Assembly: GCF_001577755.1 (NCBI RefSeq)
Contig: NZ_CP010776.1
Span: forward strand, 3,782,001 to 3,846,000
Direction of reading: 5' to 3'
DNA: 64,000 nt
Origin: Rufibacter sp. DG15C
GTDB taxonomy: Bacteria > Bacteroidota > Bacteroidia > Cytophagales > Hymenobacteraceae
The notes under the pieces: model-generated
The model's input: the letters and a program-made list of their open reading frames with translations, nothing else
What the model was told of the DNA's origin: nothing
Databases searched by the model: none
Position numbers and translations under genes: made by a program
In this document: positions 9,628-23,362 of the stretch, piece after piece
How positions within the stretch are numbered: position 1 is the first letter of the stretch
How the letters are laid out: the number at the start of each line of letters is the position of its first letter

Positions 9628-10275
9628 TCAGTCCAGACTCATTGCCCTTTTTACTTTGATTATGGTATTCTTTGCTATCCCGTGCAACTTGGCGCACTGG
9701 TTTAAGGAAAGACCTTGATTCAAATCCCTGACAAGCTTCGCATACTCTTTCAACAGTACATCATTCTCCTTTTTCCATCCTTTGGGCCTTCCAATGATTT
9801 TTCCTTTCTTGACCGCATGCGCCAGGCCGCTCTTGATTTTGGCAGACCGTTGTTTGTTGTCCTCCATGCTTAACTCGGCATAGACCGAGATGAGAATGTT
9901 GGTCACGAAAGTCTCTTCTCCGTTGTAATCAAGGCTCTCAAAATTCTGGTTCTTGAAAACTACAGATATCTTATGCTCATGTAGAAAATCGATTGTCCTG
10001 CGAATCATCTTGGCATCCCTGCCCAGTCTCTCAACTGAAGTCACAATAACCTTCTTAAATCTACCAACCTTACTTTGTTTGAATAAATGGTCCAGGTCTG
10101 GCCGCTTGTTTCCTGTTCTTCCCGATATGTTGTTCGCTATGGTTTCAACTATCTCATAGTTGTTGGCGGTGCAAAACTGCTGAAGCTCGTCAAGCTGATA
10201 AGAGTATGATTGCGAGTCTGAAGAGACACGGCAAAAAACTAAAACGGGAATCTTGGCTTCAACTGGTTCAATCAT
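9628..10275 (-). CDS. Small serine recombinase (resolvase/invertase family)
   Basis: 215 residues. The N-terminal catalytic domain has VLVFCRVSSDSQ, with the nucleophilic Ser in the R-x-S-S context. The family's Arg-rich active-site segments follow (SGRTGNKRPDLDHL; VTSVERLGRDAKMI). A helix E region (ISVYAELSMEDNKQRSAKIKSGL) leads to GRPKGW and a C-terminal helix-turn-helix (QGLSLNQCAKLHGIAKNTIIKVKRA). This is the length and layout of Hin/Tn3-type resolvases and invertases, not of the large serine integrases. It would cut and rejoin DNA at short dimer sites, to resolve cointegrates or invert a segment. I found no obvious invertible segment beside it. Confidence 0.9.
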   Translation of the reverse strand: MIEPVEAKIPVLVFCRVSSDSQSYSYQLDELQQFCTANNYEIVETIANNISGRTGNKRPDLDHLFKQSKVGRFKKVIVTSVERLGRDAKMIRRTIDFLHEHKISVVFKNQNFESLDYNGEETFVTNILISVYAELSMEDNKQRSAKIKSGLAHAVKKGKIIGRPKGWKKENDVLLKEYAKLVRDLNQGLSLNQCAKLHGIAKNTIIKVKRAMSLD

Positions 10276-10356: not shown

Positions 10357-10623
10357 TTATTTTGAACCACCTTCACCTTTTTCAATATCTAAAAGCCCAT
10401 TTTCTTCTTCCCTCAAGAATGACTCAATTATTCTTCTCCTTCTCTCCTTTATCTTCTCTTCTTCACTGTCAATCTCCACCAAGGTCAGACCTAGCTCTTC
10501 TATGTGCCTGTACTTTATCTGGTCACGGGCAATCCAGTTAGTCACTGCCGCTACTGTTACTCCCTTGCGCTTTGCATACTTGGAGGGTGTCGTCTCTTTA
10601 GACAAGTCAATGATTACTATCAT
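10357..10623 (-). CDS. Small HTH-type DNA-binding protein
   Basis: 88 residues. The N-terminal part (TPSKYAKRKGVTVAAVTNWIARDQI, residues about 12-36) reads as a MerR- or excisionase-like helix-turn-helix. It is followed by IKYRHIEELGLTLVEID, the short wing and strand often seen in such proteins. The C-terminus is a charged helix (EEEKIKERRRRIIESFLREEEN). Bacteroidota mobile elements carry many proteins of this kind as excisionases or small regulators. It sits 81 bases upstream of the recombinase on the same strand, so an accessory or regulatory role for it is possible. Confidence 0.6.
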   Translation of the reverse strand: MIVIIDLSKETTPSKYAKRKGVTVAAVTNWIARDQIKYRHIEELGLTLVEIDSEEEKIKERRRRIIESFLREEENGLLDIEKGEGGSK

Positions 10624-11016: not shown

Positions 11017-11754
11017 ATGGAACAGATACTCTACAACGAGACACTATATGACAGCGGGGAGGTGAGGGTCTATAAGACCTATGACCCAGAGCTAAAACTA
11101 TTCGGCCTATACTCGGCCAATGGAAACTGCGGGAAATGCCTGGATGCGGCATACAGGCACATCTTCCCCTTCATTGATGACGATACGGCTCCCGCCATAA
11201 CAGAAAAGGGGGAATACGTCTGGCTAGACCTTGCCTATAATGAAACGGCCATGAACGAGACAGACGGTGAACTTTGGGCTTCGGTTCACATTAACAACTC
11301 ATTATGCAACTGCGGAATAGATATCGAAAAGCTGATGGACTGCGGCATGTGCAGTGCGGGTAAAATACTCAACGAAATGAATTTCAGAAGGCTTAGGGAA
11401 TTCACCGCCACCAGGGTCTATGAATACGAGACGGAAGAGAACCTGTACAGAATAGAGCTGACCCCGAAGGAGGGTGAATGCCAGTCAGCGGACTATCTCT
11501 GGGAAGATGCCGAACTGGAGCCTGGGCTGAGAGGCGAGATTGACACCTATGAAGAGCAGGTGGCTGAGATGAAGAACAACCTGAAAGTATGCGTGTACGA
11601 GCGATTCAGCATGGGTATTAGCATTTTTTTCTACACGGTACGCATCAGTAAAATGGGTTCACCTTTGCTGTTCAGCGATATTATTGCCCCTAAGGTCATT
11701 GGCTTCTATGAGTTCACCTCGAAGTACCGCAGGCCATATGCCAATAGGCATTAA
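11017..11754 (+). CDS. Unknown Cys-rich 245-residue protein
   Basis: 245 residues, acidic, without signal or membrane segments. Cysteines cluster in NCGKC (about residue 37), CNCG (about 98) and DCGMC (about 109), suggesting a metal site built from three Cys motifs. The sequence around them (VWLDLAYNE, ELWASVHINNSLCNCGID) looks like a compact alpha/beta domain. The final 40 residues are beta-like (ISIFFYTVRISKMG). I recognise no family. It precedes another unknown acidic gene by 17 bases on the same strand, and the two probably share a transcript. Confidence 0.5.
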   Translation: MEQILYNETLYDSGEVRVYKTYDPELKLFGLYSANGNCGKCLDAAYRHIFPFIDDDTAPAITEKGEYVWLDLAYNETAMNETDGELWASVHINNSLCNCGIDIEKLMDCGMCSAGKILNEMNFRRLREFTATRVYEYETEENLYRIELTPKEGECQSADYLWEDAELEPGLRGEIDTYEEQVAEMKNNLKVCVYERFSMGISIFFYTVRISKMGSPLLFSDIIAPKVIGFYEFTSKYRRPYANRH

Positions 11755-11771
11755 AAATAATAGAAAGAGAA

Positions 11772-12194
11772 ATGAATGATAAGGTAAAGGAGGCGGCCGA
11801 GGCGATTGACGAAGAACTGTTGGCCAACTCATCGGAGAACAACTGCAAGATGATGTTTGCGGATGATGATGGATATACAATCAAAGACACGGACGTACTC
11901 TATATAATAAGCGGTGGTAGGCTAGAAGAGATTCGCATGAATGAACTAGCTCTTATAGGTTGGCATGAGACGGAGGAATATGTCATAGACAACGACTCGT
12001 CAACGAACTACTATCTGCACAAACCCACAGGAAAAATGGTGTTATGCGAATTGACCTACCAGCACAGCAACTGTATTGCCATATTCAGTGACAGAAGCCC
12101 CGCTGACGTTCCCAGTATGGCGATGGAACACCACAGATATTTCATTGACCTACTCGCCATAAGGAGGTATAAGATTAGTAGACTGCTTGACTAG
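11772..12194 (+). CDS. Unknown 140-residue protein
   Basis: 140 residues, acidic at the N-terminus (VKEAAEAIDEELLANSSENN). A central stretch of alternating strands follows (YTIKDTDVLYIISGGRLEEI; ESSTNYYLHK-like region; GKMVLCELTYQHSNCIAIF), then a helical C-terminus (MEHHRYFIDLLAIRRYKIS). There are no membrane segments. It begins 17 bases after the Cys-rich gene. I recognise no family; the two genes may form a small accessory unit. Confidence 0.45.
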   Translation: MNDKVKEAAEAIDEELLANSSENNCKMMFADDDGYTIKDTDVLYIISGGRLEEIRMNELALIGWHETEEYVIDNDSSTNYYLHKPTGKMVLCELTYQHSNCIAIFSDRSPADVPSMAMEHHRYFIDLLAIRRYKISRLLD

Positions 12195-12475: not shown

Positions 12476-14056
12476 ATGGAAACCTTGCTCAATGATGGGT
12501 ACTGCCCAGAATGCCTTGTCAACGGCAAAAGCATAAGTCTTCGTCTCAATAAAGACGACTTCTGGGAATGTCCTGAAACCAACCTTCAGTTGGCGGTATA
12601 TGGAATCCAGGCCGTGGCCTTGAAGTTCAGGGGAACGGGGCGGTTTAGGGACAGGCCCATATTTGGTTCTGACCAAATTGACGGAGCCATCCTTTTCCGC
12701 TCAGCGGGGTCATCGGCAGACTCGGACGGCTCTGCCTTCCAGTCTGAAGAAGAGTTAAGAGCTTACCTTGATAATGAGGTCGAGCCACAAAAAGAGCTAA
12801 TCCTAAAAAACCTGGCTGACTCCTATGTAAAGTTCAAATATGAGGCTTCTCCCCTTGCCTACCAGCGCCAATCCAAATTCTTCAAGATTGAATTTGACGG
12901 CCAGGGCATCCTAAAGAAACTGGAGAAGCGTGATGCGGACGAGGGTGTAGAGTTCTCCCGCTCCTACACACACTTGTATAGTCTGTTGATGAAGCTGTTC
13001 CAAAATTACCATGAAGGAAACATAGACTGGCTTCCACAGATGGGCATGAGCCAGAACCAACTAGAACTGTGCAATAAGCATCTGCACAGCCCGCCAGAGC
13101 CTGTCACCCATTTGAGTGACAAAAACATCCTGCGGCAACGGCTTATGAATTTTATGGTAGACTTGATTGAAATCATCTACCAAGGTAAAACCATAGAAGT
13201 CGCCCCAAACTACTCCAATGAGTTTCAAGAAGATGCTAAGGTCTCCCAGGCCGATTCCCTGCTCACGCTCCAAGATATACTGAACCTGAAGACTGACCTG
13301 CTTAAAAACGCAAAAGTGAAACTCGTTCGGCACAAGGACAGCAGGAAGGAGTACCGTGACATCATCAAGGACAAGTCATCACTACTGGAATACCAGAGAC
13401 AGCAGAGCAAGGAGGTATTCAAAGACTGCGACTACATCATATCATTTTTGGGTCAGGAAGGCACCAAATCACTTCTGTTCGGAATTTTCAAAGTGAGTGG
13501 CGTGGAGAAGCGTGAAAAGCACTTCTACTATGACTTAAATCTGGTACACGAGCTTGAATTTCTCTATGACCGAATAATCATTGATTGGGGAAATAATGCC
13601 CAAGCCTGGCACCAATGGTACCATACTCAATTAAAGGAGGTCGTCCAGATTCTCCCAAAAGGTTACCTAGGCTCGTTTCCTGGTCTGCTGAATTTCGTGC
13701 TGGACTTCCAAGAACTTGAGAGGCTCATTCTAAACCCTGACGCCAACCAAGACTGGAAGAACCACCTTTCAGCTGTAAACGGCATCTATATGATTCTTGA
13801 CTCCAATACTGGAAACCAATACATAGGCTCCGCCTGCGGCAGCGAAGGAATTTGGCAGAGATGGAGCGAGTACGCAAAATCCCACCATGGCGGCAACCAA
13901 AAACTTATAAAGCTTTGCGCTGAGGCTGGATACCACAGAAACTTTCGCTTCTCTATCCTTCAGACATTGCCAAGTAATATAACTAAGCGTGAGATTGTGG
14001 CGATTGAATTCCTCTATATGGAGAAGTTCGGCACCAGAGCTAACGGATTAAACTAA
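12476..14056 (+). CDS. Protein with C-terminal GIY-YIG nuclease domain
   Basis: 526 residues. The C-terminal 90 residues are a GIY-YIG nuclease domain. GIYMILDS and QYIGSA form the signature strands, GIWQRWSEY carries the conserved Arg, and VAIEFLYMEKFG carries the catalytic Glu. The N-terminus has a partial zinc-finger look (GYCPECL, then WECPETN). The 350 residues between are helical and charged and I do not recognise them; they could choose the target. It is the first of four tightly spaced genes (gaps of 6, 21 and 26 bases) with a UDG-fold protein, a deiminase-fold enzyme and an HNH nuclease. A role in cutting foreign or modified DNA is inferred from this company. Confidence 0.75.
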   Translation: METLLNDGYCPECLVNGKSISLRLNKDDFWECPETNLQLAVYGIQAVALKFRGTGRFRDRPIFGSDQIDGAILFRSAGSSADSDGSAFQSEEELRAYLDNEVEPQKELILKNLADSYVKFKYEASPLAYQRQSKFFKIEFDGQGILKKLEKRDADEGVEFSRSYTHLYSLLMKLFQNYHEGNIDWLPQMGMSQNQLELCNKHLHSPPEPVTHLSDKNILRQRLMNFMVDLIEIIYQGKTIEVAPNYSNEFQEDAKVSQADSLLTLQDILNLKTDLLKNAKVKLVRHKDSRKEYRDIIKDKSSLLEYQRQQSKEVFKDCDYIISFLGQEGTKSLLFGIFKVSGVEKREKHFYYDLNLVHELEFLYDRIIIDWGNNAQAWHQWYHTQLKEVVQILPKGYLGSFPGLLNFVLDFQELERLILNPDANQDWKNHLSAVNGIYMILDSNTGNQYIGSACGSEGIWQRWSEYAKSHHGGNQKLIKLCAEAGYHRNFRFSILQTLPSNITKREIVAIEFLYMEKFGTRANGLN

Positions 14057-14062
14057 AAATAT

Positions 14063-14734
14063 ATGCCTGTAACAACCATACACCATTTCCTAGACCAATA
14101 CCCAGTTCGCCAGACAGACACAAAAATGATAGTGGGGACAATCCACCCACATTCAGTTGAGAATTTCACCATCCCATTCTTTTATGGTAATGTCGGAAGC
14201 TTCTGGGATATCCTTCACAATGCCTTTCCTCACTATCAGATAAGAGAGGCAGGGACTGAAAATTTCTCAATAGAAAATATATTAACGATGCTTGAGCAGA
14301 ACAATACTTGGGTGACAGACATCATAAGGCAATGCGACAGAGAGGATGAAACCGTTACCCAAGACTCCCTTCTATATAACATAATTCCTAATAATATCCA
14401 GATTAGCGAAGCTTTACAAAATGCACCTATAGACACTATTTACTTTACCTCTCGTTTTTCGACCAATAATGCTGCAAGCCTGTTCACCCAAGTATTTAAT
14501 ATAGACTATGCTAATACATTCAATGGTGATACAAGCGAGTTTACTATTCCCGCACAGCACTTTGGCAGGGAAATCAGGTGTGTAGTTTTATATTCCCCGT
14601 CTAATGCCGCCAATGTAGGTGTCTCCCGAACCCCACCTTATCTGAACAACATTGAATATTATCAGCAATTTGAGACGCCAGTAAGGCAGTTCAAGATAGA
14701 CTTCTACCAAAATAAGTTTGAGTTCTTGAATTAG
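14063..14734 (+). CDS. Uracil-DNA-glycosylase-superfamily-like protein
   Basis: 223 residues. KMIVGTIHPHS (about residues 21-31) matches the first UDG-fold motif, a strand followed by G-T-x-x-P. FFYGNVGSFWDIL (about residues 39-51) matches the Y/F...N-x-FW segment that follows it in Mug/TDG-like relatives. Near the end VVLYSPSNAANVG resembles the second active-site motif (S-P-S-x-A-N). The catalytic type cannot be read from this, and the protein may bind rather than excise a base. It begins 6 bases after the GIY-YIG gene and ends 21 bases before the deiminase-fold gene, so it is part of the same operon. Confidence 0.6.
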   Translation: MPVTTIHHFLDQYPVRQTDTKMIVGTIHPHSVENFTIPFFYGNVGSFWDILHNAFPHYQIREAGTENFSIENILTMLEQNNTWVTDIIRQCDREDETVTQDSLLYNIIPNNIQISEALQNAPIDTIYFTSRFSTNNAASLFTQVFNIDYANTFNGDTSEFTIPAQHFGREIRCVVLYSPSNAANVGVSRTPPYLNNIEYYQQFETPVRQFKIDFYQNKFEFLN

Positions 14735-14755
14735 CCAGTAGCTTACAGAAGTTTC

Positions 14756-15592
14756 ATGATAACTGACCAAGATTCTAACTTCCTATATCTAGCTGACACT
14801 CTGCCGCAGTTATACCCATCCTTTTACAAGAGGTTTGAGCAAACGCTAAAAGACAATCAGGTAAACTACGCCCTGCTCCCAGAGACGAAGGACGTATGGG
14901 CGGTTGACTACATGCCAATACAGGTTGATGATGAACGGTTCGTACAGTTCAGGTACAATCCCGACTACCTTCAGACCGTAAAGCTGCGGAAGACCATCTC
15001 TGACGTTTACTCCATCTGCGATACACTTTGTATAAAGCCATTGAAGTCAACAATCGTCTTGGACGGTGGTAACGTCATCCGATGGAAGGACAGGGTGATA
15101 ATGTGCGACAAAGTGTTTCGGGAGAACCCTGCTATGCCAGAGAAAACCCTTATAAAAGAACTGAGGACGCTTTTGGAGGTAGACCACATCTGTTTTATAC
15201 CCACTGACAAAGCAGATAAGATAGGACACGCTGACGGCATGGTGCGTTTCCTAGACTACAGGACGGTGCTGATAAATGACTATTCCAAAGAAAAAAGCGA
15301 GTTTCAGCTAACGTTCAGGATGGCGCTCCACAACGCTGGTCTGGACTGGATTGAGGTGCCTTACAACCCATACCGCAATAAGCAAAATATCCAGGCCAAC
15401 GGAATCTACATCAACTATCTGCAGATGGACGGCTGTTTGGTCCTTCCTATTTTCAACCAGAAAGAAGACGAAGAGGCGGTAAAGCTCTTTAGTCAGCTAT
15501 TCCCGAAGACGAGAATCTCCACCGTTGAAAGCAATGAGATTGCCCAGGAAGGCGGCATCCTAAATTGTATCACCTGGAACGTTAAAAATTGA
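14756..15592 (+). CDS. Agmatine deiminase / peptidyl-arginine deiminase-fold enzyme
   Basis: 278 residues, shorter than typical agmatine deiminases (about 350). The family motifs appear in order: WAVDYMP (family W-x-RD-x-GP), LDGGNV, GHADGMVRF with the catalytic His and Asp, and EGGILNCITW with the nucleophilic Cys near residue 272. The Arg that normally precedes the first Asp is Val here, and the Gly two residues on is Met, so the substrate may not be agmatine. There is no signal peptide, so it is cytosolic, unlike secreted PPAD. It sits third in an operon of DNA-acting proteins, which is unusual for this fold and argues against a plain polyamine role. Confidence 0.75.
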   Translation: MITDQDSNFLYLADTLPQLYPSFYKRFEQTLKDNQVNYALLPETKDVWAVDYMPIQVDDERFVQFRYNPDYLQTVKLRKTISDVYSICDTLCIKPLKSTIVLDGGNVIRWKDRVIMCDKVFRENPAMPEKTLIKELRTLLEVDHICFIPTDKADKIGHADGMVRFLDYRTVLINDYSKEKSEFQLTFRMALHNAGLDWIEVPYNPYRNKQNIQANGIYINYLQMDGCLVLPIFNQKEDEEAVKLFSQLFPKTRISTVESNEIAQEGGILNCITWNVKN

Positions 15593-15618
15593 TTGAATAA
15601 AGCATTTTTAAAGACAAA

Positions 15619-16698
15619 GTGGAAGCAACAGAAACACTCATAGAAAACTACGGTATCCTAGCCTCTATGTCATGGAACAGCAATAAATGGGCAGGTGACC
15701 CAAGCAAGGAAGACTTAGGCCGCTCCAAATACACGTATGTTCAGAATAAACTACATACACATGAGAGTCTGAATTTTGGGCATGAAATCTATCCATCAGA
15801 AGAAGATGGTTATTACATAGGCTACACACCTATGCTTAGAAAGCCCCCCGCTTTTGATAAATCAAGTTCAGTCAAAATTATATTCCTTAGCAGTAGTGAT
15901 TATAAGAACTCTAATAGAAAACTAATCATTGGGTTTTATGGAAACCCTGAGTTTGGCCAGGAATTTCCCCGCTTATCAAAGCATAGGCTATTTAGGAAAT
16001 ATGATGGCGGTAATATAAAAGCACTCCCTGAAGACATTATTTACTTTGACAAACCTTTGGTTATAAGCAATGAAAGTGTTGCAAAGGAAGGTCTGTTACC
16101 AGAAGGAAAGCTTATCTCCCAACGAGGGTTCAATTATTTGAACTCTGACAACGTATACACCATACTTTTACAAGCACAGAGCCTGAACCAACAAAATCAC
16201 AAGCTTAATGCTTATGTAAAAAATTATCCTATAAGGGTTGCTGAAACAAAGGAGCAGGCCACCTCCGAAGACTATTACAATGCTATCTCAGACGCTGATG
16301 CAGACACCTTAAAAGGCATATTGGAGCTAGAAAAAAAGATGGCAAAGCAGACCCCTGAGGTAAGACAGAGAATTGCCTCATTTATTGAACGTGGTGCTAT
16401 TTCATCAAAGGTAAAGAAGCTGACAGGATACAAGTGTCTTATCTGTGATTCACTAAAGGAAAACCCCTATTCATTCAAGAAGCCAAATGGCGACTTCTAC
16501 ATTGAAACACACCATGTCGAGCAGGTTTCCACTTTAAACAAGGGTGTTCTTGGGATAAACAACCTCATCACCGTTTGTGCCAACCACCATAGGCAGCTAC
16601 ATTACGGAGACTCTTTATTAGTAGAACGAACAGCTACCTCGTTCAAATTTAAGATTGATGGGAAAACGATAAAAATTGATGCTATTAAGATACCTTAA
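15619..16698 (+). CDS. HNH endonuclease
   Basis: 359 residues from a GTG at 15619; the next in-frame ATG is 14 codons in. The C-terminal 110 residues are an HNH nuclease: YKCLICD forms the first half of a zinc knuckle, ETHHVEQV holds the catalytic His pair, NNLITVCANHH holds the Asn and the second Cys, and RQLHYG closes it. The N-terminal 230 residues (WAGDPSKEDLGRSKYTYV, GHEIYPSEEDGYYIGY) are unrecognised and could recognise the substrate, as in restriction enzymes for modified DNA. It closes the four-gene run begun by the GIY-YIG protein. In the same frame, beyond its stop, lies the remnant of a type ISP restriction enzyme. Confidence 0.8.
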   Translation: MEATETLIENYGILASMSWNSNKWAGDPSKEDLGRSKYTYVQNKLHTHESLNFGHEIYPSEEDGYYIGYTPMLRKPPAFDKSSSVKIIFLSSSDYKNSNRKLIIGFYGNPEFGQEFPRLSKHRLFRKYDGGNIKALPEDIIYFDKPLVISNESVAKEGLLPEGKLISQRGFNYLNSDNVYTILLQAQSLNQQNHKLNAYVKNYPIRVAETKEQATSEDYYNAISDADADTLKGILELEKKMAKQTPEVRQRIASFIERGAISSKVKKLTGYKCLICDSLKENPYSFKKPNGDFYIETHHVEQVSTLNKGVLGINNLITVCANHHRQLHYGDSLLVERTATSFKFKIDGKTIKIDAIKIP

Positions 16699-16964: not shown

Positions 16965-18335
16965 ATGGAATCAAATATAATTAATGAGGTAAAACGCAGA
17001 ATAGAGACCTTCAAAGGCTTAGACTTGCTAGAACTTGTCAGTAAAGCCTATCCTGATATGGCAAGCCTGGAATCCAATCTAATATCAAAGTTCACTGTCT
17101 CAGATTATTTGAATATCAGTGAGAGAGTCTTTATTCAACTTGAGAAAGAGATAGATTCCCCCGATGCACTGATACTACCTGCCACATTCAGTTCCACGGA
17201 TATGGGTAATAATAATATCCTCAATATCCTTGACTCACACTTAAGCTATATCCAAAACCTGCAATTTCAAAACAGCGAGAACACCCTGCTTTGGCTTGCG
17301 CAGTATCAATTACAGAATGGGTTTTATGGCAAATCCAAATACAAAGTTCACGATGCGAATGCTTTGAAACTAAAAAAAGCCTCAGATGAAATAAGCCTTC
17401 AAGCTCAGAAGCTGAAACAGCTAGAAGAAGAACAGAGGAAACTAATCAAACAGCTTAATGACCAGAAAAAAGACTTATCTGATTTCCAAACCCAAAAGCA
17501 AAATGAGTTACAGCAGATTACAAGTAACCTAAGTGCAGCGAACACAAATACAAACCAGATACAGCAACTCCTGAATAGTTCTACTCAGGCAAATTCACAA
17601 GTCAATTCAATTGCCGAGCAGGTACAGAAGGAAAAACTAAGGGTAGATACCACATCAGACGAACTTAATAAAACATATGACAAGCATAGAGGCGAATTCA
17701 CTGATTTGATTAGCCGTATGGCAACAAAAGAAAAGGAATTTATTGACCAGTATGTTGATTTTGAGGCTAAGTTAGGCTTCGTGGAAAGCAAGCACAGTTA
17801 TTTTGAAGACAGGAATACATATCTAGACAATCTCATAGGGCGTGAGGTAGGCGCTTCGCTATTTGAAACCTTCAAGCAACGCAAAACTGAATTGTTCAAA
17901 CCGTTGGAGTTATGGCGGTACGCTGTAGGGGCAGTGGGATTGTTAGCAGTCCTTGCAATATTCGCAGTGTTTACCAATTTTTTTGGCCTTTCTGGAACAT
18001 CAAACCCTATTCTAACTTGGGAGGCCATATTTGTAAACACCCTAAAAACACTTCCTTTCTTCTTTCTGCTTTACTATACTATCTCTCAATATAACAAGGA
18101 GCGTAATTTCCAGGAAGAGTATGCATTCAAGTCCGCAGTGGCTCTTACTATTAAAGCATATTCTGATGTTTTAAAGGATGATACCAATAAAGATGCTCTG
18201 ATATTGAAAGCCGTCTACGGTGTATATAGAAGCCCTATCCAGAATGGCTCTAAGCCTTCAAGAGAGGTAAACTCAGCAACAGATATGGTGAAGGAAGTGG
18301 TTACCAAAGGAGCGGAGGTTTTCTCTAAGAACTGA
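16965..18335 (+). CDS. Coiled-coil membrane protein, unknown
   Basis: 456 residues. Residues 1-130 are helical and soluble. Residues 135-280 form a long coiled coil rich in Gln, Lys and Leu (LKQLEEEQRKLIKQLNDQKK). Two membrane segments follow at 318-341 (RYAVGAVGLLAVLAIFAVF) and 355-374 (IFVNTLKTLPFFFLLYYTIS). A soluble tail ends the chain. No enzyme motif is visible. The gene is followed after 23 bases by a PLD-family nuclease gene on the same strand. A coiled-coil sensor anchored next to a nuclease is a common defence layout, but that reading is inference. Confidence 0.55.
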   Translation: MESNIINEVKRRIETFKGLDLLELVSKAYPDMASLESNLISKFTVSDYLNISERVFIQLEKEIDSPDALILPATFSSTDMGNNNILNILDSHLSYIQNLQFQNSENTLLWLAQYQLQNGFYGKSKYKVHDANALKLKKASDEISLQAQKLKQLEEEQRKLIKQLNDQKKDLSDFQTQKQNELQQITSNLSAANTNTNQIQQLLNSSTQANSQVNSIAEQVQKEKLRVDTTSDELNKTYDKHRGEFTDLISRMATKEKEFIDQYVDFEAKLGFVESKHSYFEDRNTYLDNLIGREVGASLFETFKQRKTELFKPLELWRYAVGAVGLLAVLAIFAVFTNFFGLSGTSNPILTWEAIFVNTLKTLPFFFLLYYTISQYNKERNFQEEYAFKSAVALTIKAYSDVLKDDTNKDALILKAVYGVYRSPIQNGSKPSREVNSATDMVKEVVTKGAEVFSKN

Positions 18336-18358: not shown

Positions 18359-19282
18359 ATGAAAATTCTTCAACCGCACAGAATCAGCACCGAGATTCTA
18401 GACATCATATATGAGGCGAAACAATACCTAATCATCGTCTCACCCTACGTCAACTTCAAATACTGGGAGAGCATAGCAAGCGCCCTTAGCAACGCCAACA
18501 AGCGTGGGGTACGGATTGATTTTTTCGTTCGCAACGAGCCTGACAACTCCGCTAGTTGGGAGCAGGTAGAGAGCCTAGGCATCATCCCAAGGCTTGTAAG
18601 CAACCTGCACGCAAAGTTCTACTTCAACGAGAAGAACGGTGTCATCTCATCCATGAACCTGCTGAGCAGCAGTAATAGCAACTCCATTGAGATAGGGTGC
18701 AAGTTGGAAACCATGGAAGAGTTGGACGAGCTTAAAAGGTTCGTCAAGGACTACGTCACCACCAACGAGGTAAAGGAGAAACCCAGTGAAGATGACCTGT
18801 ACGTCAGCAAGGAGAAGTTCCTGACCGTTCTTGAGAACTACCTTAGCAACGATACCAAGAGCAGGTCAAGCGCCTATTTCAAGAACGGTGCCATACACAT
18901 CAAAGCTTGCTCTAACAGCATCACCATGACGATGGACAAGGTAAAGAACAAGGTCTACCTTGACGCCATACTGTCCCAGGACGAGGCTGAAATGTACAAC
19001 AGCGAGCAGTCCAAATACCTGACGCCTGGATATTTTGTCTATCAGTTTAACAAAGGCGGGAACGGCTACCACAATACCGTAGGCGCTTGGTCACAGGCAA
19101 GGCTTTCTAACTCCTATCTGGAGAACCTTCGGGTTGAAGAGAAAAAGCAGTTGATTTATGAGATTTCAGAGTTTGTAAAGAATGTCACCAAGCTCAAAGA
19201 TGCCTGCTATGCGGCTTATAAAGCAAGTAAGGCCAAACCCTCGCTAGAAATCAATCCCATAAAAATTTCATCTGAGGATTAA
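18359..19282 (+). CDS. Phospholipase D-family nuclease-like protein
   Basis: 307 residues. Residues 1-140 form one PLD domain: a strand YLIIVSPYVNFKYW, a Rossmann-like RGVRIDFFVRNE, then NLHAKFYFNEKNGVISSMNL with the HxK catalytic pair and the trailing Asn/Ser. It ends in SNSIEIG, typical of bacterial PLD nucleases (Nuc, BfiI-like), which act as dimers with one HKD motif per chain. The C-terminal half (YFKNGAIHIKACSNSITMTM; GYFVYQFNKGGNGYH) is unrecognised and could bind DNA. It follows the coiled-coil membrane gene by 23 bases. Confidence 0.75.
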   Translation: MKILQPHRISTEILDIIYEAKQYLIIVSPYVNFKYWESIASALSNANKRGVRIDFFVRNEPDNSASWEQVESLGIIPRLVSNLHAKFYFNEKNGVISSMNLLSSSNSNSIEIGCKLETMEELDELKRFVKDYVTTNEVKEKPSEDDLYVSKEKFLTVLENYLSNDTKSRSSAYFKNGAIHIKACSNSITMTMDKVKNKVYLDAILSQDEAEMYNSEQSKYLTPGYFVYQFNKGGNGYHNTVGAWSQARLSNSYLENLRVEEKKQLIYEISEFVKNVTKLKDACYAAYKASKAKPSLEINPIKISSED

Positions 19283-19360: not shown

Positions 19361-19468
19361 ATTAAAACTGAGAGCCTATTAATACAAGCCATGCTTGAAA
19401 AGTCTTAGTAAACACCTTTGACCCTCCAAGGACCTATTCCATCTAAATCGCTAACAACCTACTACCGA

Positions 19469-21271
19469 ATGAATCCAGACAACACCTTCTCCATTGCCGC
19501 AAAGACATGCACCCTGAAGCATAATTCCCAGGAGGGTCACTCCACCATTTTTAACAGCGGTGTAAAATATGTCATCCCAATTTACCAACGGCCATATTCG
19601 TGGAAGGAGGAACAGATAGCGAAGTTTTTAGGCGACCTGCTCACCTCCTTCTGGGGAGTTGACGGTAATTCCTCGGAAGAGCCTATGTTCATTGGCACCA
19701 TGCAATTATCAGCCAACAACGGGTCTGGCAAACAAGACATCATAGACGGTCAGCAAAGGCTTACTACTTTTCTGATTCTGCTTAAAGTTTTGAAATCCGA
19801 GTTTCCTGATTGCGGTGAGCTGGCTGATATGGATTTCGACTGGTTATCCACTCAGGTGAGCAAACCTACGCAACAATACTATCTGGATGCATTCATTGCA
19901 GCCGACCTAAAAGCGAGCGGTGATTCGCAGAACCCTTATTTCCGCAATGCGATGCTGATGAAGAACATCCTGATGGATGAAAAGACCAATTTCTCCAACA
20001 TTGACATTGACAAGTTTACAAAGCACCTGTTAAGCAACGTCTACTTTGTGGTCATAGAGACAAGGGCAGGTCTATCCAAAACCCTTCAGATATTCAATGC
20101 CATTAACACCACGGGCCTTGACTTGAACGGTGGTGACATCTTCAAAATCAGGATGTATGAGTATCTGACCGACAAAAAGGGCCAGGATGAGTCGGCCTTT
20201 GAAAGAATCAACCATCTCTACCATAAGATAGATGATTACAACTCAAAGCTGAACGCAGATATCATCAACATAAACGAAGTGCTGCGCATCTATCAATATA
20301 TATTGGTAGCAAGGCACGGACTTCCTACAACGCTTTACTACCAGGGCGTAGAAACCTTTTACGAGGGTCTTTTTGACACGGTGTTCAACATTAACCATTG
20401 GGACCACTTCAAGAACAACATCTCCACGCTAGAACTATCACTTGAAGACTTAGAGCAGATAATTGACGTTAGGTATGCCTGGGAAAAGCAATGGAGAAGC
20501 AAAGAGGGCTTCACTGCTGAGGATGCCTGCGCCATGCACTTCATATGGAGTTCAAGATACACCAGATACTGGAATCTAGTCCTCGTCTATCTTCACAAGT
20601 ACAGAGGAACTGAAAACGAATCTGACAACCTGTTACTTTTCATAAGGCAGCTAAGCAAGGTTTTCACCATCTACAGCATACGTTACCAAAAAATCAAAAG
20701 CGATATCTTCTATGGTTTCATGCACAAGGTTATTGATGCCCTGGTCAACAAGCCCTTCGAGGAAACCATGGCCATCATCAACAGCAAGATTGGCAAGGAG
20801 AAAGACCATAACCCAGGTGGCTGGTATGATTTAAACCATTTTCTTTCGGAGAGATTGACAGATAATCCAAGAAGAAAAGGTATCATTTGTAGATTGTCAG
20901 CTATGCTTGAGGAAGACTATAAATCAACTCAAAAGGAGCAGATTAACGCTATTAGGAAGAGGCTGTTTGAATCTAAGATTGATATTGAGCATATTCAGTC
21001 TTACCATGACAGCAACGGTGAATTGAGACAGGAGATATGGGACGAATGGAAGCATAACATCAATTCACTAGGAAACCTGATGGTGCTGGAGCAGTCCATA
21101 AACCGCTCGATTAGCAATAAGCCGTACGAGGTGAAAATTCAAGGGTACCCGACTAGCTCCTTCTCTATTGTAAAAAACCACTCTACTTTATACGGTGAGT
21201 GGGGCTTGGATAAGTGCCTTGAGAGAAAGGAAAAGGAGAAAAACAAAATCCTGAACTATCTCTTCAATTAA
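19469..21271 (+). CDS. Single-chain GmrSD-type DUF262/DUF1524 protein
   Basis: 600 residues from the ATG at 19469; the frame extends upstream to a TTG, which I do not favour. The N-terminal DUF262 domain shows VIPIYQRPYSW (about residues 35-45), FIGTMQL and DIIDGQQRLTTF, the ParB-like NTP-binding set of GmrS. The C-terminal DUF1524 domain has KIDIEHIQSY and NSLGNLMVLEQSINRSISNK, the His-centred HNH-like nuclease of GmrD. GmrSD-type enzymes are modification-dependent (type IV) restriction enzymes of glucosylated hydroxymethylcytosine DNA, and BrxU is a fused relative. All key motifs are present. It lies alone, with its own downstream terminator. Confidence 0.85.
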   Translation: MNPDNTFSIAAKTCTLKHNSQEGHSTIFNSGVKYVIPIYQRPYSWKEEQIAKFLGDLLTSFWGVDGNSSEEPMFIGTMQLSANNGSGKQDIIDGQQRLTTFLILLKVLKSEFPDCGELADMDFDWLSTQVSKPTQQYYLDAFIAADLKASGDSQNPYFRNAMLMKNILMDEKTNFSNIDIDKFTKHLLSNVYFVVIETRAGLSKTLQIFNAINTTGLDLNGGDIFKIRMYEYLTDKKGQDESAFERINHLYHKIDDYNSKLNADIININEVLRIYQYILVARHGLPTTLYYQGVETFYEGLFDTVFNINHWDHFKNNISTLELSLEDLEQIIDVRYAWEKQWRSKEGFTAEDACAMHFIWSSRYTRYWNLVLVYLHKYRGTENESDNLLLFIRQLSKVFTIYSIRYQKIKSDIFYGFMHKVIDALVNKPFEETMAIINSKIGKEKDHNPGGWYDLNHFLSERLTDNPRRKGIICRLSAMLEEDYKSTQKEQINAIRKRLFESKIDIEHIQSYHDSNGELRQEIWDEWKHNINSLGNLMVLEQSINRSISNKPYEVKIQGYPTSSFSIVKNHSTLYGEWGLDKCLERKEKEKNKILNYLFN

Positions 21272-21973: not shown

Positions 21974-23362
21974 TTATGCCGCCATGTCTAAACACGTAGC
22001 AAACTCGCTTTCAGTGACTTGCTCAGCGTCAAGCGATGGTATAATGTTAAATTCCTGGATGAAGTACTTGGTTATGGTGTCCATCACCAATCCTGCGTTA
22101 TAGTCAAAGGTCAGGATAGAATCATGGATGGTGGATAGAAACACTGAGTTACGCATCAAGGCTTTCGTCACCTTGCCAATTATGATATGCGCCTCGTTAA
22201 ACTGCATCCTTCTGCTAAGGTCTTTATGACTTGCAATCTTATGGTGCCTTATCACAGCATAGACGTTTGGGAATCTATTTCTAAAGTATGCAGATTCCTT
22301 ACTTTTATCGGCCCAGCCATTGCTGCAATAAAACAATGTAGCGAACAGCATCTGCTTGAAGGCTGACCTGTTACCCATGTAGTTCATCTCGTCCATCAAC
22401 TCATTGTACAGTCTTCCTCTGCTGCACAGCGAGATATACTCCTGGACGTCTTTTGGGATGTCGGTGCCGTAGTAATCAACCAGTAGGCTACAGAAGATGA
22501 ACGGCTGCGAGTTGCGTATGTCTATGTTCACTAACGGTACGTGGGGATGGTTCCTGTGATACAGGAACTGGCGAAGCGACTTAGATAAGTTGGTCACGAA
22601 GGTGAAGACTCGGCCTGTTTTTAAATCCTCCGTGAAGCAGAATTCCCTATTCATAATGTTTTGGATGGACACCCTATCAGTGTTATACTTGTCTAGCATG
22701 ACCTTTTTAAGGTTCTCAGGAATATTCAATAAGAATAGGTCGTACTTGTCTTCGTGCTTCAATGATATGGAGTAGAAATCCGTGTCAGGGTGATTTTCTA
22801 TACCCACCTTAAATGCCCCATACAAGCCATCTGGCGGCAGCGAATCTATCAGGGTGATAGTGTCTTCGTATTTCTTATTGATGTAATCTAGGGCCTCCTG
22901 ATGGCGTATCAGGATGTTCTTTAGCTGAGACTTAATGTAGTTTGCTGGCTTGGAGTCGCTCTTATGCTTCATCCTATCAAGCTTGTCAGCGAACACCTCC
23001 TTCAGTACCATAATCTGCACCGCCTTCGAACTGTATTCCATGGAGATATCATAGCCTTTGGACTCCTTTCCTTCAATGTAGTGGTTATCGGTGACGATGA
23101 CGTTCCATTCCAACAAATCATTTAGCACCATCTGGTAATAGTCGCTTCCTAGGACCCTAGCCAACATTCGTGCCTTCAGAGATACAAGCCCATTTCTTTT
23201 CGGCTTGGCGAATATCTTCTGCTCTATGATTTTAGACAACACGTAGGCGTATTTGTCTTGGTGGTCAAACTTGTGTTGCGTATTATATTTTGACAGTATT
23301 AGTTTCTCTAACTCAACACTCCCTGGAATATATAGCATCCTTTCTTTTTTCTTTTTCTTCAT
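21974..23362 (-). CDS. Protein with family A polymerase-like palm motifs
   Basis: 462 residues. The C-terminal half carries, in order, motifs like those of family A DNA polymerases and single-subunit RNA polymerases. VNIDIRNSQPFIFCSLL resembles motif A (Asp near residue 287, with an SQ). RSAFKQMLFATLFYC, then FRNRFPNVYAVI, resembles motif B and the O-helix region. LSTIHDSILTF resembles motif C (HDS near residue 414). The N-terminal half looks like winged-helix DNA-binding segments and no exonuclease domain is visible. Such compact proteins could replicate an integrated or plasmid element. Enzyme activity is inferred. It is divergent from a long AT-rich region. Confidence 0.6.
   Translation of the reverse strand: MKKKKKERMLYIPGSVELEKLILSKYNTQHKFDHQDKYAYVLSKIIEQKIFAKPKRNGLVSLKARMLARVLGSDYYQMVLNDLLEWNVIVTDNHYIEGKESKGYDISMEYSSKAVQIMVLKEVFADKLDRMKHKSDSKPANYIKSQLKNILIRHQEALDYINKKYEDTITLIDSLPPDGLYGAFKVGIENHPDTDFYSISLKHEDKYDLFLLNIPENLKKVMLDKYNTDRVSIQNIMNREFCFTEDLKTGRVFTFVTNLSKSLRQFLYHRNHPHVPLVNIDIRNSQPFIFCSLLVDYYGTDIPKDVQEYISLCSRGRLYNELMDEMNYMGNRSAFKQMLFATLFYCSNGWADKSKESAYFRNRFPNVYAVIRHHKIASHKDLSRRMQFNEAHIIIGKVTKALMRNSVFLSTIHDSILTFDYNAGLVMDTITKYFIQEFNIIPSLDAEQVTESEFATCLDMAA

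Follow-up and report, generated by a model that had tools for sequence, protein, structure and literature searches.

Gene organization of the locus

The window, the whole 64,000-nucleotide stretch of DNA analysed here, contains a run of four genes on the + strand. P1 (12476..14056, 526 aa), P2 (14063..14734, 223 aa), P3 (14756..15592, 278 aa) and P4 (15619..16698, 359 aa, with a GTG start) are separated by gaps of only 6, 21 and 26 bases. The ORF listing agrees with the first-pass annotation in the positions and gaps of these genes. That annotation had described an operon-like run in which two nucleases stand beside a protein of UDG fold and a guanidino-type enzyme; this holds, and the pieces recur together elsewhere.

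Further genes follow on the + strand: a coiled-coil protein with weak SMC-like matches only, which we count as context (16965..18335), a PLD-fold protein resembling DrmC/MkoB (18359..19282; Pfam, NCBIfam and PADLOC profile matches) and a GmrSD-type modification-dependent restriction enzyme (19418..21271; PF03235, 1.3e-29; PF07510, 2.1e-15), located 2.7 kb downstream of the four-gene run. A serine resolvase gene recognized by a profile match (9628..10275, - strand) perhaps belongs to the island carrying the locus.

The encoded proteins

P1 has an N-terminal domain, P1N (residues ~1-255), followed by a Uzume-type GIY-YIG nuclease (residues 263-526). Its score against the Pfam GIY-YIG profile is below the cut-off (20.4 versus 22.6 bits); residues 263-526 match the PADLOC profile for UzuA (PDLC03973) with an E-value of 4.6e-87, covering positions 3-276 of 278. 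The stretches that we take to be the GIY, YIG, R, E and terminal N motifs are kept in all three full-length P1 rows of the alignment. The predicted structure of P1N reached a pLDDT of only 49.5.

P4 is a predicted HNH protein with a McrA-like HNH part. It scores 17.9 bits against Pfam HNH (cut-off 21.4), and the match to EcoKMcrA (E 4.7e-6) covers the HNH part only (residues 275-332), with no match to McrA in the N-terminal ~270 aa. Relatives of P4 occur in 6 of the 150 family genomes, the window counted; we found none in viral contigs.

Judged from its sequence, P2 is a UDG-superfamily DNA glycosylase-like protein near the DNA-deoxyinosine glycosylases. No Pfam or NCBIfam profile matches it at E<=1, TIGR04274 (DNA-deoxyinosine glycosylase, equivalog cut-off 80 bits) included. 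A profile-profile comparison of the P2 set (n=3) with deoxyinosine-glycosylase-type relatives (n=8) gave a probability of 98.2% over 162 columns, while unrelated pairs score 0.1-3.1%. The P2 family also matches PDB entry 2l3f (E 1.3e-10), and the UDG motif regions are visible in its alignment. In L002/L026, a 43% relative and a deiminase form one fused protein, and a more distant relative stands without a deiminase (L003). Among the UDG-type partners of other deiminases, the one in L034 passes the TIGR04274 cut-off with 94.5 bits and those of L083, L107 and L126 match below it.

P3 is predicted to be a short guanidino-group deiminase of the PAD_porph / agmatine deiminase superfamily (PF04371; E 4e-28, 99 bits, cut-off 25). 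W48, D51, D103, H158, D160 and C271 are invariant across the 17 aligned rows, and D51, H158, D160 and C271 presumably are the catalytic D, H-x-D and C of PF04371. The first-pass annotation had known of no named system with this gene set. This stands for the deiminase, which matches no PADLOC 2.0.0 model at E<=1 and for which our literature searches listed no paper placing it in such a system, but not for P1, whose C-terminal half is the named UzuA.

The relatives of P3 with solved structures are agmatine deiminases and peptidyl-arginine deiminases. One could imagine that the deiminase drains arginine or agmatine and thereby stops growth, while the DNA enzymes sense or damage phage DNA. An acidic protein with its catalytic residues kept would fit such a metabolic effector. 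However, P3 scores only 54.6 bits against TIGR03380 (agmatine deiminase, equivalog cut-off 381.8), and fusions to glycosylases and exchange at one gene position would be odd for a metabolic enzyme, so that we consider this explanation very unlikely.

A deiminase with an exchangeable partner

What is conserved is the pair formed by the deiminase and a single, exchangeable DNA enzyme, not the four genes. We had to abandon the idea of a fixed four-gene system: among the loci examined, the exact four-gene order was found in the window alone, and the recurring core is the pair. In 66 of 94 rows, the deiminase adjoins or is fused to a UDG-type, AAG-fold or HNH partner (an earlier tally gave 66 of 102 clusters; the 94 rows remain after three hand corrections and removal of short rows). 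With P3 alone as query, a partner was present at 16 of 23 loci of the class sample, the window counted. The deiminase mostly lies downstream of its partner with an overlapping start, and in 36 of the 66 pairs measured the overlap is 4 bases. Fusions to the deiminase were found for both UDG-type (L026) and AAG-fold (L181) partners.

Three members of the AAG-like partner family tested against Pfam gave no match at E<=1 (AAG is PF02245), and a sequence search of the PDB gave a best E-value of only 0.072. The predicted structure (pLDDT 90.3) has human AAG as its best Foldseek match (E 3e-5, probability 1.00, TM-score 0.46), and the fold comparison with AAG yields Z 12.4 over 150 residues, versus 4.5 for the next fold. 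A comparison of the family profile with the AAG profile gave 89% probability.

The three partner folds, UDG-type, AAG-fold and HNH, are unrelated to each other. When the 66 labelled rows were placed on the deiminase tree, at least 25 partner changes were needed, and the UDG and HNH labels clustered no more than shuffled labels. Because of this lack of clustering, the partners look interchangeable; on this phylogenetic evidence, they have repeatedly been swapped while the deiminase stayed. The median pI is 5.2 for the deiminases, compared with 6.3 for AAG, 8.6 for UDG and 8.5 for HNH partners. Being acidic, the deiminases are unlikely to hold DNA alone. A single constant partner joins three DNA enzymes that are otherwise unrelated, and partners are exchanged at a fixed and often translation-coupled gene position. 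We know of no DNA defence that uses deiminase chemistry.

It is conceivable that the deiminase controls its partner, turning partner arginines into citrulline or releasing the partner in a check resembling an enzymatic antitoxin. Any arginine-rich DNA-binding partner could be served by one generic chemistry, in agreement with the swap among three folds, and the downstream position with overlapping start would also be in line with such control. So would the 28 of 94 deiminase rows without a recognized partner (in one of these, L037, a DUF1801 gene occupies the partner position) and the two deiminases fused to an ADP-ribosylglycohydrolase according to Pfam (L118, L178), a family that acts in part on ADP-ribosyl-arginine. 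However, the AAG-like enzyme occurs without a deiminase in 6 of 15 matches and therefore is not obligatorily toxic. For this reason we dropped a simple toxin-antitoxin pair, and the control enzyme as such seems unlikely.

Distribution and genomic context

Related arrangements combine the four families in several ways. Full-length P1 together with a UDG-type gene and a deiminase recurs in L050, L101 and L169, and L049 contains a P1N-HNH protein, a deiminase and P4. In a related genome (L178), all four families lie within ~5 kb in another arrangement, with a GIY-YIG protein lacking P1N and a GmrSD gene alongside. Adhaeribacter and Rufibacter genomes carry subsets of the four families.

GmrSD genes were also found near the deiminases of L050, L098 and L110, and in a selection made by eye, the surroundings of the L050, L098, L110, L217, L123 and L091 deiminases contain GmrSD, type I or Mrr genes. 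As evidence of a defence context, the unbiased PADLOC test is weak. A scan of 80 neighbouring ORFs returned 167 families at E<=1e-15, each matched by at most three ORFs and many of them redundant models for a single type of protein (type I specificity); 80 control ORFs, taken from the host chromosome of the window and not from the deiminase genomes, returned 8 families with at most two ORFs each.

This modest outcome would suit a DNA-repair or base-salvage module that is unrelated to phages and is carried by mobile elements in its own right. The UDG, AAG and OGG-like folds (the latter, PF21790, in L050) are repair folds, and in two genomes, L198 and L199, solitary AAG-like genes have the same chromosomal surroundings. 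On the other hand, GIY-YIG, HNH, PDDEXK and GmrSD genes lie in or beside the deiminase builds. The deiminase family is also patchily distributed (21 of 395 class genomes), with some loci on a plasmid or in contigs classed as viral. A repair module seems quite unlikely to us in view of these features.

In some relatives, the pairs lie between attC-like sites, as cassettes in an array. Twelve such sites were found in L058, 10 in L064 and 4 in L096, mostly ~120-126 nt long, compared with 3 in 300 kb of the host chromosome of the window; 12 of 19 picked loci have at least one site and 7 have none. A looser AAC/GTT rule, fitted after viewing the leader sequences and yielding some A+T-rich, doubtful matches, reached threshold in 9 of 92 flanks on the downstream side and 8 of 91 on the upstream side, compared with 10 of 967 control segments. 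Under the strict GTTRRRY rule there were 6 matches, versus 3 in shuffled sequence. The integron integrase profile TIGR02249 exceeded its cut-off in none of 9 genomes, with sub-cut-off matches in all 9 and in 14 of 14 control genomes. An integron cassette was rejected for the window set itself, where the + strand between 8 and 26 kb shows no attC-like site.

A possible attack on modified phage DNA

Sequences and models show the genes, their folds, the retained P3 catalytic residues, the repeated pairing of the deiminase with a DNA enzyme, the fusions and the exchange of partners. We propose that this locus represents one version of a modular anti-phage cassette attacking modified DNA, in which the deiminase uncovers or alters a base for its partner. 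We assign this reading a probability of about 40%. The core of the cassette would pair the small deiminase P3 with an enzyme acting on DNA bases, in this case the UDG-type P2. The deiminase would hydrolyse a guanidino or amidino group carried by a hypermodified base or by its nucleotide precursor; a partner of UDG or AAG type would then excise the base, and one of HNH type would cut at it. In the window, P1 and P4 would cut the DNA, either at the modified base itself or at the abasic site left by its removal.

The first-pass annotation had suggested that a modified base is recognized or made and the DNA then cut, which is possible. Within this scheme, uncovering the base and then excising or cutting would be more likely than making it, because of the Brig3-BapA precedent. 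In that system, described in a paper that also names Brig1, the genes of the Brig3 glycosylase and of BapA overlap, and BapA exposes the base by removing its glucose (PMC13160076).

The deiminase could instead create the lesion by deiminating a purine, either within DNA or among the free nucleotides, as in a conversion of guanine to xanthine. DNA carrying the product would then be destroyed by the partner, which comes from families known to act on hypoxanthine or xanthine. Several UDG partners are related to DNA-deoxyinosine glycosylases and AAG removes hypoxanthine too, so that two unrelated folds would share one classical substrate. Enzymes of the deiminase fold, however, attack open guanidines, not ring amidines. 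The acidic pI of the deiminases also speaks against a lesion maker, the HNH partners fit poorly, and self-damage would need control, of which we found none. We therefore regard it as improbable.

Returning to the uncovering of a modified base by the deiminase, one point against it is that we know of no guanidino-bearing DNA base that could be named in these phages. The nearest base appears to be dG+, an amidine (PMC5567051). Also counting against the proposed cassette are the acidity of the deiminases, the 28 of 94 rows without a recognized partner, the AAG-like relatives and the distant P2 relative that stand without a deiminase, the restriction of the four-gene order to the window among the loci examined, and the weak PADLOC test. 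We dropped the idea that phages bearing deiminase trios hypermodify their DNA by a thymidylate-synthase-based route, since none of 10 records, many of them fragments, matched PF00303.

If the deiminase does uncover a base, a guanidino or amidino modification of phage DNA would be predicted, and the deiminase would serve as an enzyme for finding it. It is tempting, though rather doubtful, to go further and see in the guanidino-group deiminases a new enzyme class of prokaryotic immunity, which would use exchangeable base-excising or base-cutting partners to expose and destroy guanidino- or amidino-decorated phage DNA. Such DNA would then be common in phages of Bacteroidota.

Comparison with known systems

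P3 shares its superfamily and catalytic residues with agmatine deiminase and the Porphyromonas-type PAD. It is shorter (~278 aa versus 330-438 aa in the solved relatives), is tied to DNA enzymes and stays far under the agmatine deiminase cut-off. The neighbouring GmrSD gene and the likeness of the P4 HNH part to EcoKMcrA recall type IV restriction; to our knowledge, neither GmrSD nor McrA includes a deiminase or a glycosylase.

Uzume is presumably a single-gene system. The C-terminal part of P1 matches the UzuA profile from end to end, but P1 has an added N-terminal domain and stands in a run with a glycosylase and a deiminase. Like CMoRE, described as a GIY-YIG type IV enzyme cutting hydroxymethyl- or glucosyl-cytosine DNA, P1 joins a GIY-YIG nuclease to a second domain; in CMoRE the nuclease is N-terminal and acts alone, whereas in P1 it is C-terminal (PMC12923530).

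The closest parallel, in gene architecture, is Brig3-BapA. There, two overlapping genes in a defence island encode a UDG-type glycosylase and a hydrolase that strips off one portion of a hypermodified base, a layout that the pairing of P2 with P3 resembles. The hydrolases differ, BapA being a glucosyl hydrolase and P3 a member of a guanidino-deiminase family. The deiminase pairs moreover exchange the glycosylase for AAG or HNH folds, a swap absent from the cited sections of the Brig3-BapA account (PMC13160076).

Gene order around the deiminase

The ORF listing places the four genes P1–P4 (12476–16698, plus strand), separated by 6, 21 and 26 bases, exactly as the first-pass annotation had it, in a genome that consists of one contig of 4.14 Mb. 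P1 (526 aa) carries its GIY-YIG nuclease at the C-terminal end; residues 263–526 match the UzuA (Uzume) profile of PADLOC end to end (E 4.6e-87), and the Pfam GIY-YIG score is slightly under the cut-off. P2 (223 aa) had no match at E<=1 in either Pfam or NCBIfam. P3 (278 aa) belongs to PAD_porph (Pfam, 4e-28) and scores far under the NCBI cut-off for agmatine deiminase. At its C-terminal end P4 (359 aa) has an HNH part that lies under the Pfam cut-off and is similar to EcoKMcrA. Nearby, profile matches identified GmrSD, a PLD protein similar to DrmC, and a serine resolvase.

Some neighbours recur at deiminase loci of other genomes (L numbers below also cover phage, viral and plasmid records). 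A 462-aa protein (21974–23362, minus strand) has relatives at L049, L050, L106 and L169, and a small HTH-like protein (10357–10623, minus strand) has relatives in L048 and L049. The two upstream ORFs, this one and 11017–12194 (plus strand), are shared with L048, where an HNH-deiminase pair takes the place of the window's set.

A deiminase with exchangeable partners

A P2 search of 241 genomes of the order gave matches in three, including the window's own: the second is a 492-aa fusion of a P2 relative (43%) with a P3 relative, the third a weak partial relative with no adjoining deiminase. Searching 395 genomes of the class with P3 yielded 45 genomes at E<=1e-8. The short P3 family comprises 23 loci in 21 of these, the others being weaker matches, mostly longer frames. 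A DNA enzyme adjoins the deiminase in 16 of the 23 loci: UDG-type in 5 (window included), AAG-like (resembling alkyladenine DNA glycosylase in its modelled fold) in 8 and HNH in 3. Two of the seven loci without a recognised partner lie at a contig end.

A scan of species genomes gave at least 576 P3 relatives, of which the 80 most similar to the P3 of the window were pooled with the loci above and three further loci. The resulting 112 deiminase ORFs formed 102 clusters at 97% identity, 66 of them with a partner; 94 rows of tree length comprised 31 AAG, 18 HNH, 17 UDG and 28 without partner (after three hand corrections). Three partner profiles, seeded from deiminase neighbours, matched 39, 20 and 22 of 4399 ORFs, of which 37, 18 and 20 stand beside a deiminase or form a fusion with one. 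A 4-base gene overlap was seen in 36 of 66 measured pairs, a count that leaves out the window's pair and in which some loci belong to both sets. Fusions to the deiminase occur with UDG (L026) and with AAG (L181, an unverified faecal phage record). Deiminases of 419–433 aa with a hydrophobic N-terminal extension, in L109, L117, L121, L125 and L127 (Prevotella and other Bacteroidetes/Bacteroidales records), stand without a recognised DNA-enzyme partner.

On a quick deiminase tree, at least 25 partner changes occurred among 66 labelled rows. The UDG and HNH labels were not clustered (15 and 16 changes vs shuffled means of 15.9 and 16.8); the AAG label was (19 vs 26.3). L074 (UDG) and L075 (HNH) are 88.9% identical in DNA over 873 columns beginning 14 bases before the deiminase start, and their partner genes show no likeness. 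L060 (UDG) and L064 (HNH) share the deiminase plus 58 columns ending at the partner start. Since partners exchange while the deiminase is shared, they appear to serve one common role for the deiminase, or the deiminase for them.

Nature of the partners

The UDG partner in L034 passes the NCBI cut-off for DNA-deoxyinosine glycosylase (94.5 vs 80 bits), and profile-profile comparison joined the P2 set (n=3) to the set around L034 with 98% probability over 162 columns, against 0.1–3.1% for unrelated profile pairs. The three members of the AAG-like family that were tested had no Pfam match. Its AlphaFold2 model (27 rows, pLDDT 90.3) had human AAG as top PDB match (E 3e-5, probability 1.00, TM-score 0.46); a second alignment gave Z 12.4 (rmsd 3.1, 150 residues), the next fold reaching 4.5, and comparison with a profile of 19 AAG relatives gave 89%. 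There the invariant E44 and Y46 fall on the ETEAY motif of AAG, its general-base region, E44 on the motif's second E and Y46 on its Y. Several members of the HNH partner family have an HTH-like front.

AAG-like genes without deiminase occupy the same site in two related genomes (L198, L199), by eye near an Ogt-like gene; these are perhaps ordinary repair enzymes.

Larger builds

Full P1, UDG and deiminase also occur together in L050 (Adhaeribacter aquaticus; the set is preceded by GmrSD and, before that, an OGG-like glycosylase), L101 (Rufibacter ruber; in between lies a gene whose UDG match is below threshold) and L169 (from the window's genus; a PDDEXK gene in between). In L049 (A. soli), a fusion of P1N, the N-terminal domain of P1, with HNH is followed by the deiminase and P4, and in L170 P1N is fused to an OGG-like glycosylase (Pfam). 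In L178, from the window's family, the four families lie within about 5 kb in a different order. On one side are a GIY-YIG gene lacking P1N (44% to the second half of P1) and a stop-interrupted UDG-type gene (TIGR04274, 32 of 80 bits); facing them are P4 (53%) and a fusion of deiminase and ADP-ribosylglycohydrolase, and behind these comes a GmrSD_N gene.

Of 150 genomes of the family, 6 (the window's among them) have P4 relatives; three of these loci (L252–L254) show no deiminase in the 1.5 kb covered. P1 had any match in 20 of 390 order genomes: full-length in 2 (window included), the UzuA part only in 14 and P1N only in 4.

The first ~100 aa of P1N (window 12476–13240) also stand alone, among L171, L172 and L173; by eye, this lone start precedes a GmrSD-like gene in L171 and has an AlkB-like gene near it in L173. 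ADP-ribosylglycohydrolase, a further modification-removing enzyme at deiminase loci, is fused to the deiminase in L118 and L178 (Pfam), and putative ones apparently lie nearby in L055 (7469–8440) and L101 (10517–11488).

Defence context and carriage

Genes chosen by eye and then tested near the deiminase include GmrSD (window, L050, L098, L110, L178), type I genes (L217, L123) and Mrr (L091). An unbiased PADLOC test of 80 ORFs drawn from 42 deiminase loci returned type I specificity, GmrSD-like and MADS matches, each family in at most 3 ORFs, and 80 host-chromosome ORFs gave 8 families with at most 2 each; the draw is weak support for a defence context.

Some of the pairs form two-gene cassettes flanked by attC-like hairpins, with 12 such sites in L058, 10 in L064 and 4 in 3.5 kb in L096, against 3 in 300 kb of host chromosome. 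Among 93 rows, attC-like flanks were found downstream in 9 of 92 and upstream in 8 of 91 (control segments, 10 of 967). No integron integrase exceeded the cut-off in nine genomes with such cassettes, among them the Bacteroidota genomes of these three arrays. Phage-defence cassettes in integrons are reportedly the topic of Kieffer et al. and Darracq et al. AAG-deiminase pairs lie in contigs classed as viral by IMG/VR (L204, L205, L206, L218), and a Flammeovirga plasmid carries deiminase with HNH.

In other phage contigs (L207, L208, L210, L214, L215, L216, L219–L223) a deiminase relative lies, by eye, beside a phosphatidylserine-decarboxylase-like and/or DDAH-like gene; Pfam, run on L207 and L214, gave PF19420 and PF02666, with PF04371 in L207. 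No thymidylate synthase was found in 10 tested records of these. Bacteroides phages DAC16, DAC19, DAC20, DAC22, DAC23 and SJC03 also encode a deiminase relative, preceded in DAC19 (L179, 11746–12798) by a small HNH-like gene (by eye).

Possible mechanism

Because its catalytic residues are kept in 17 aligned rows, P3 should, judging from sequence, act on a guanidine or amidine. The deiminases are acidic (median pI 5.2), the UDG and HNH partners basic (8.6 and 8.5) and the AAG-like ones intermediate (6.3). The deiminase may therefore reach DNA through its partner, as the fusions would allow directly, or its target may be small molecules or protein. In the main rival reading the deiminase would be a control enzyme targeting arginines of its partner. 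We give a probability of about 40% to the reading, drawn by analogy with the published Brig3-BapA defence pair, that the deiminase would instead expose a base for the DNA enzyme beside it.

No PADLOC 2.0.0 model matched P3 at E<=1, and titles and abstracts, with most subscription journals outside the search, yielded no publication that links a deiminase to a glycosylase or nuclease in a defence role. We file the deiminase as a new part within base-excision or type IV defence. The closest worked-out case found is Brig3-BapA, with overlapping genes for a glycosylase and a hydrolase that exposes the glycosylase's base (PMC13160076); the deiminase would occupy the position of BapA.
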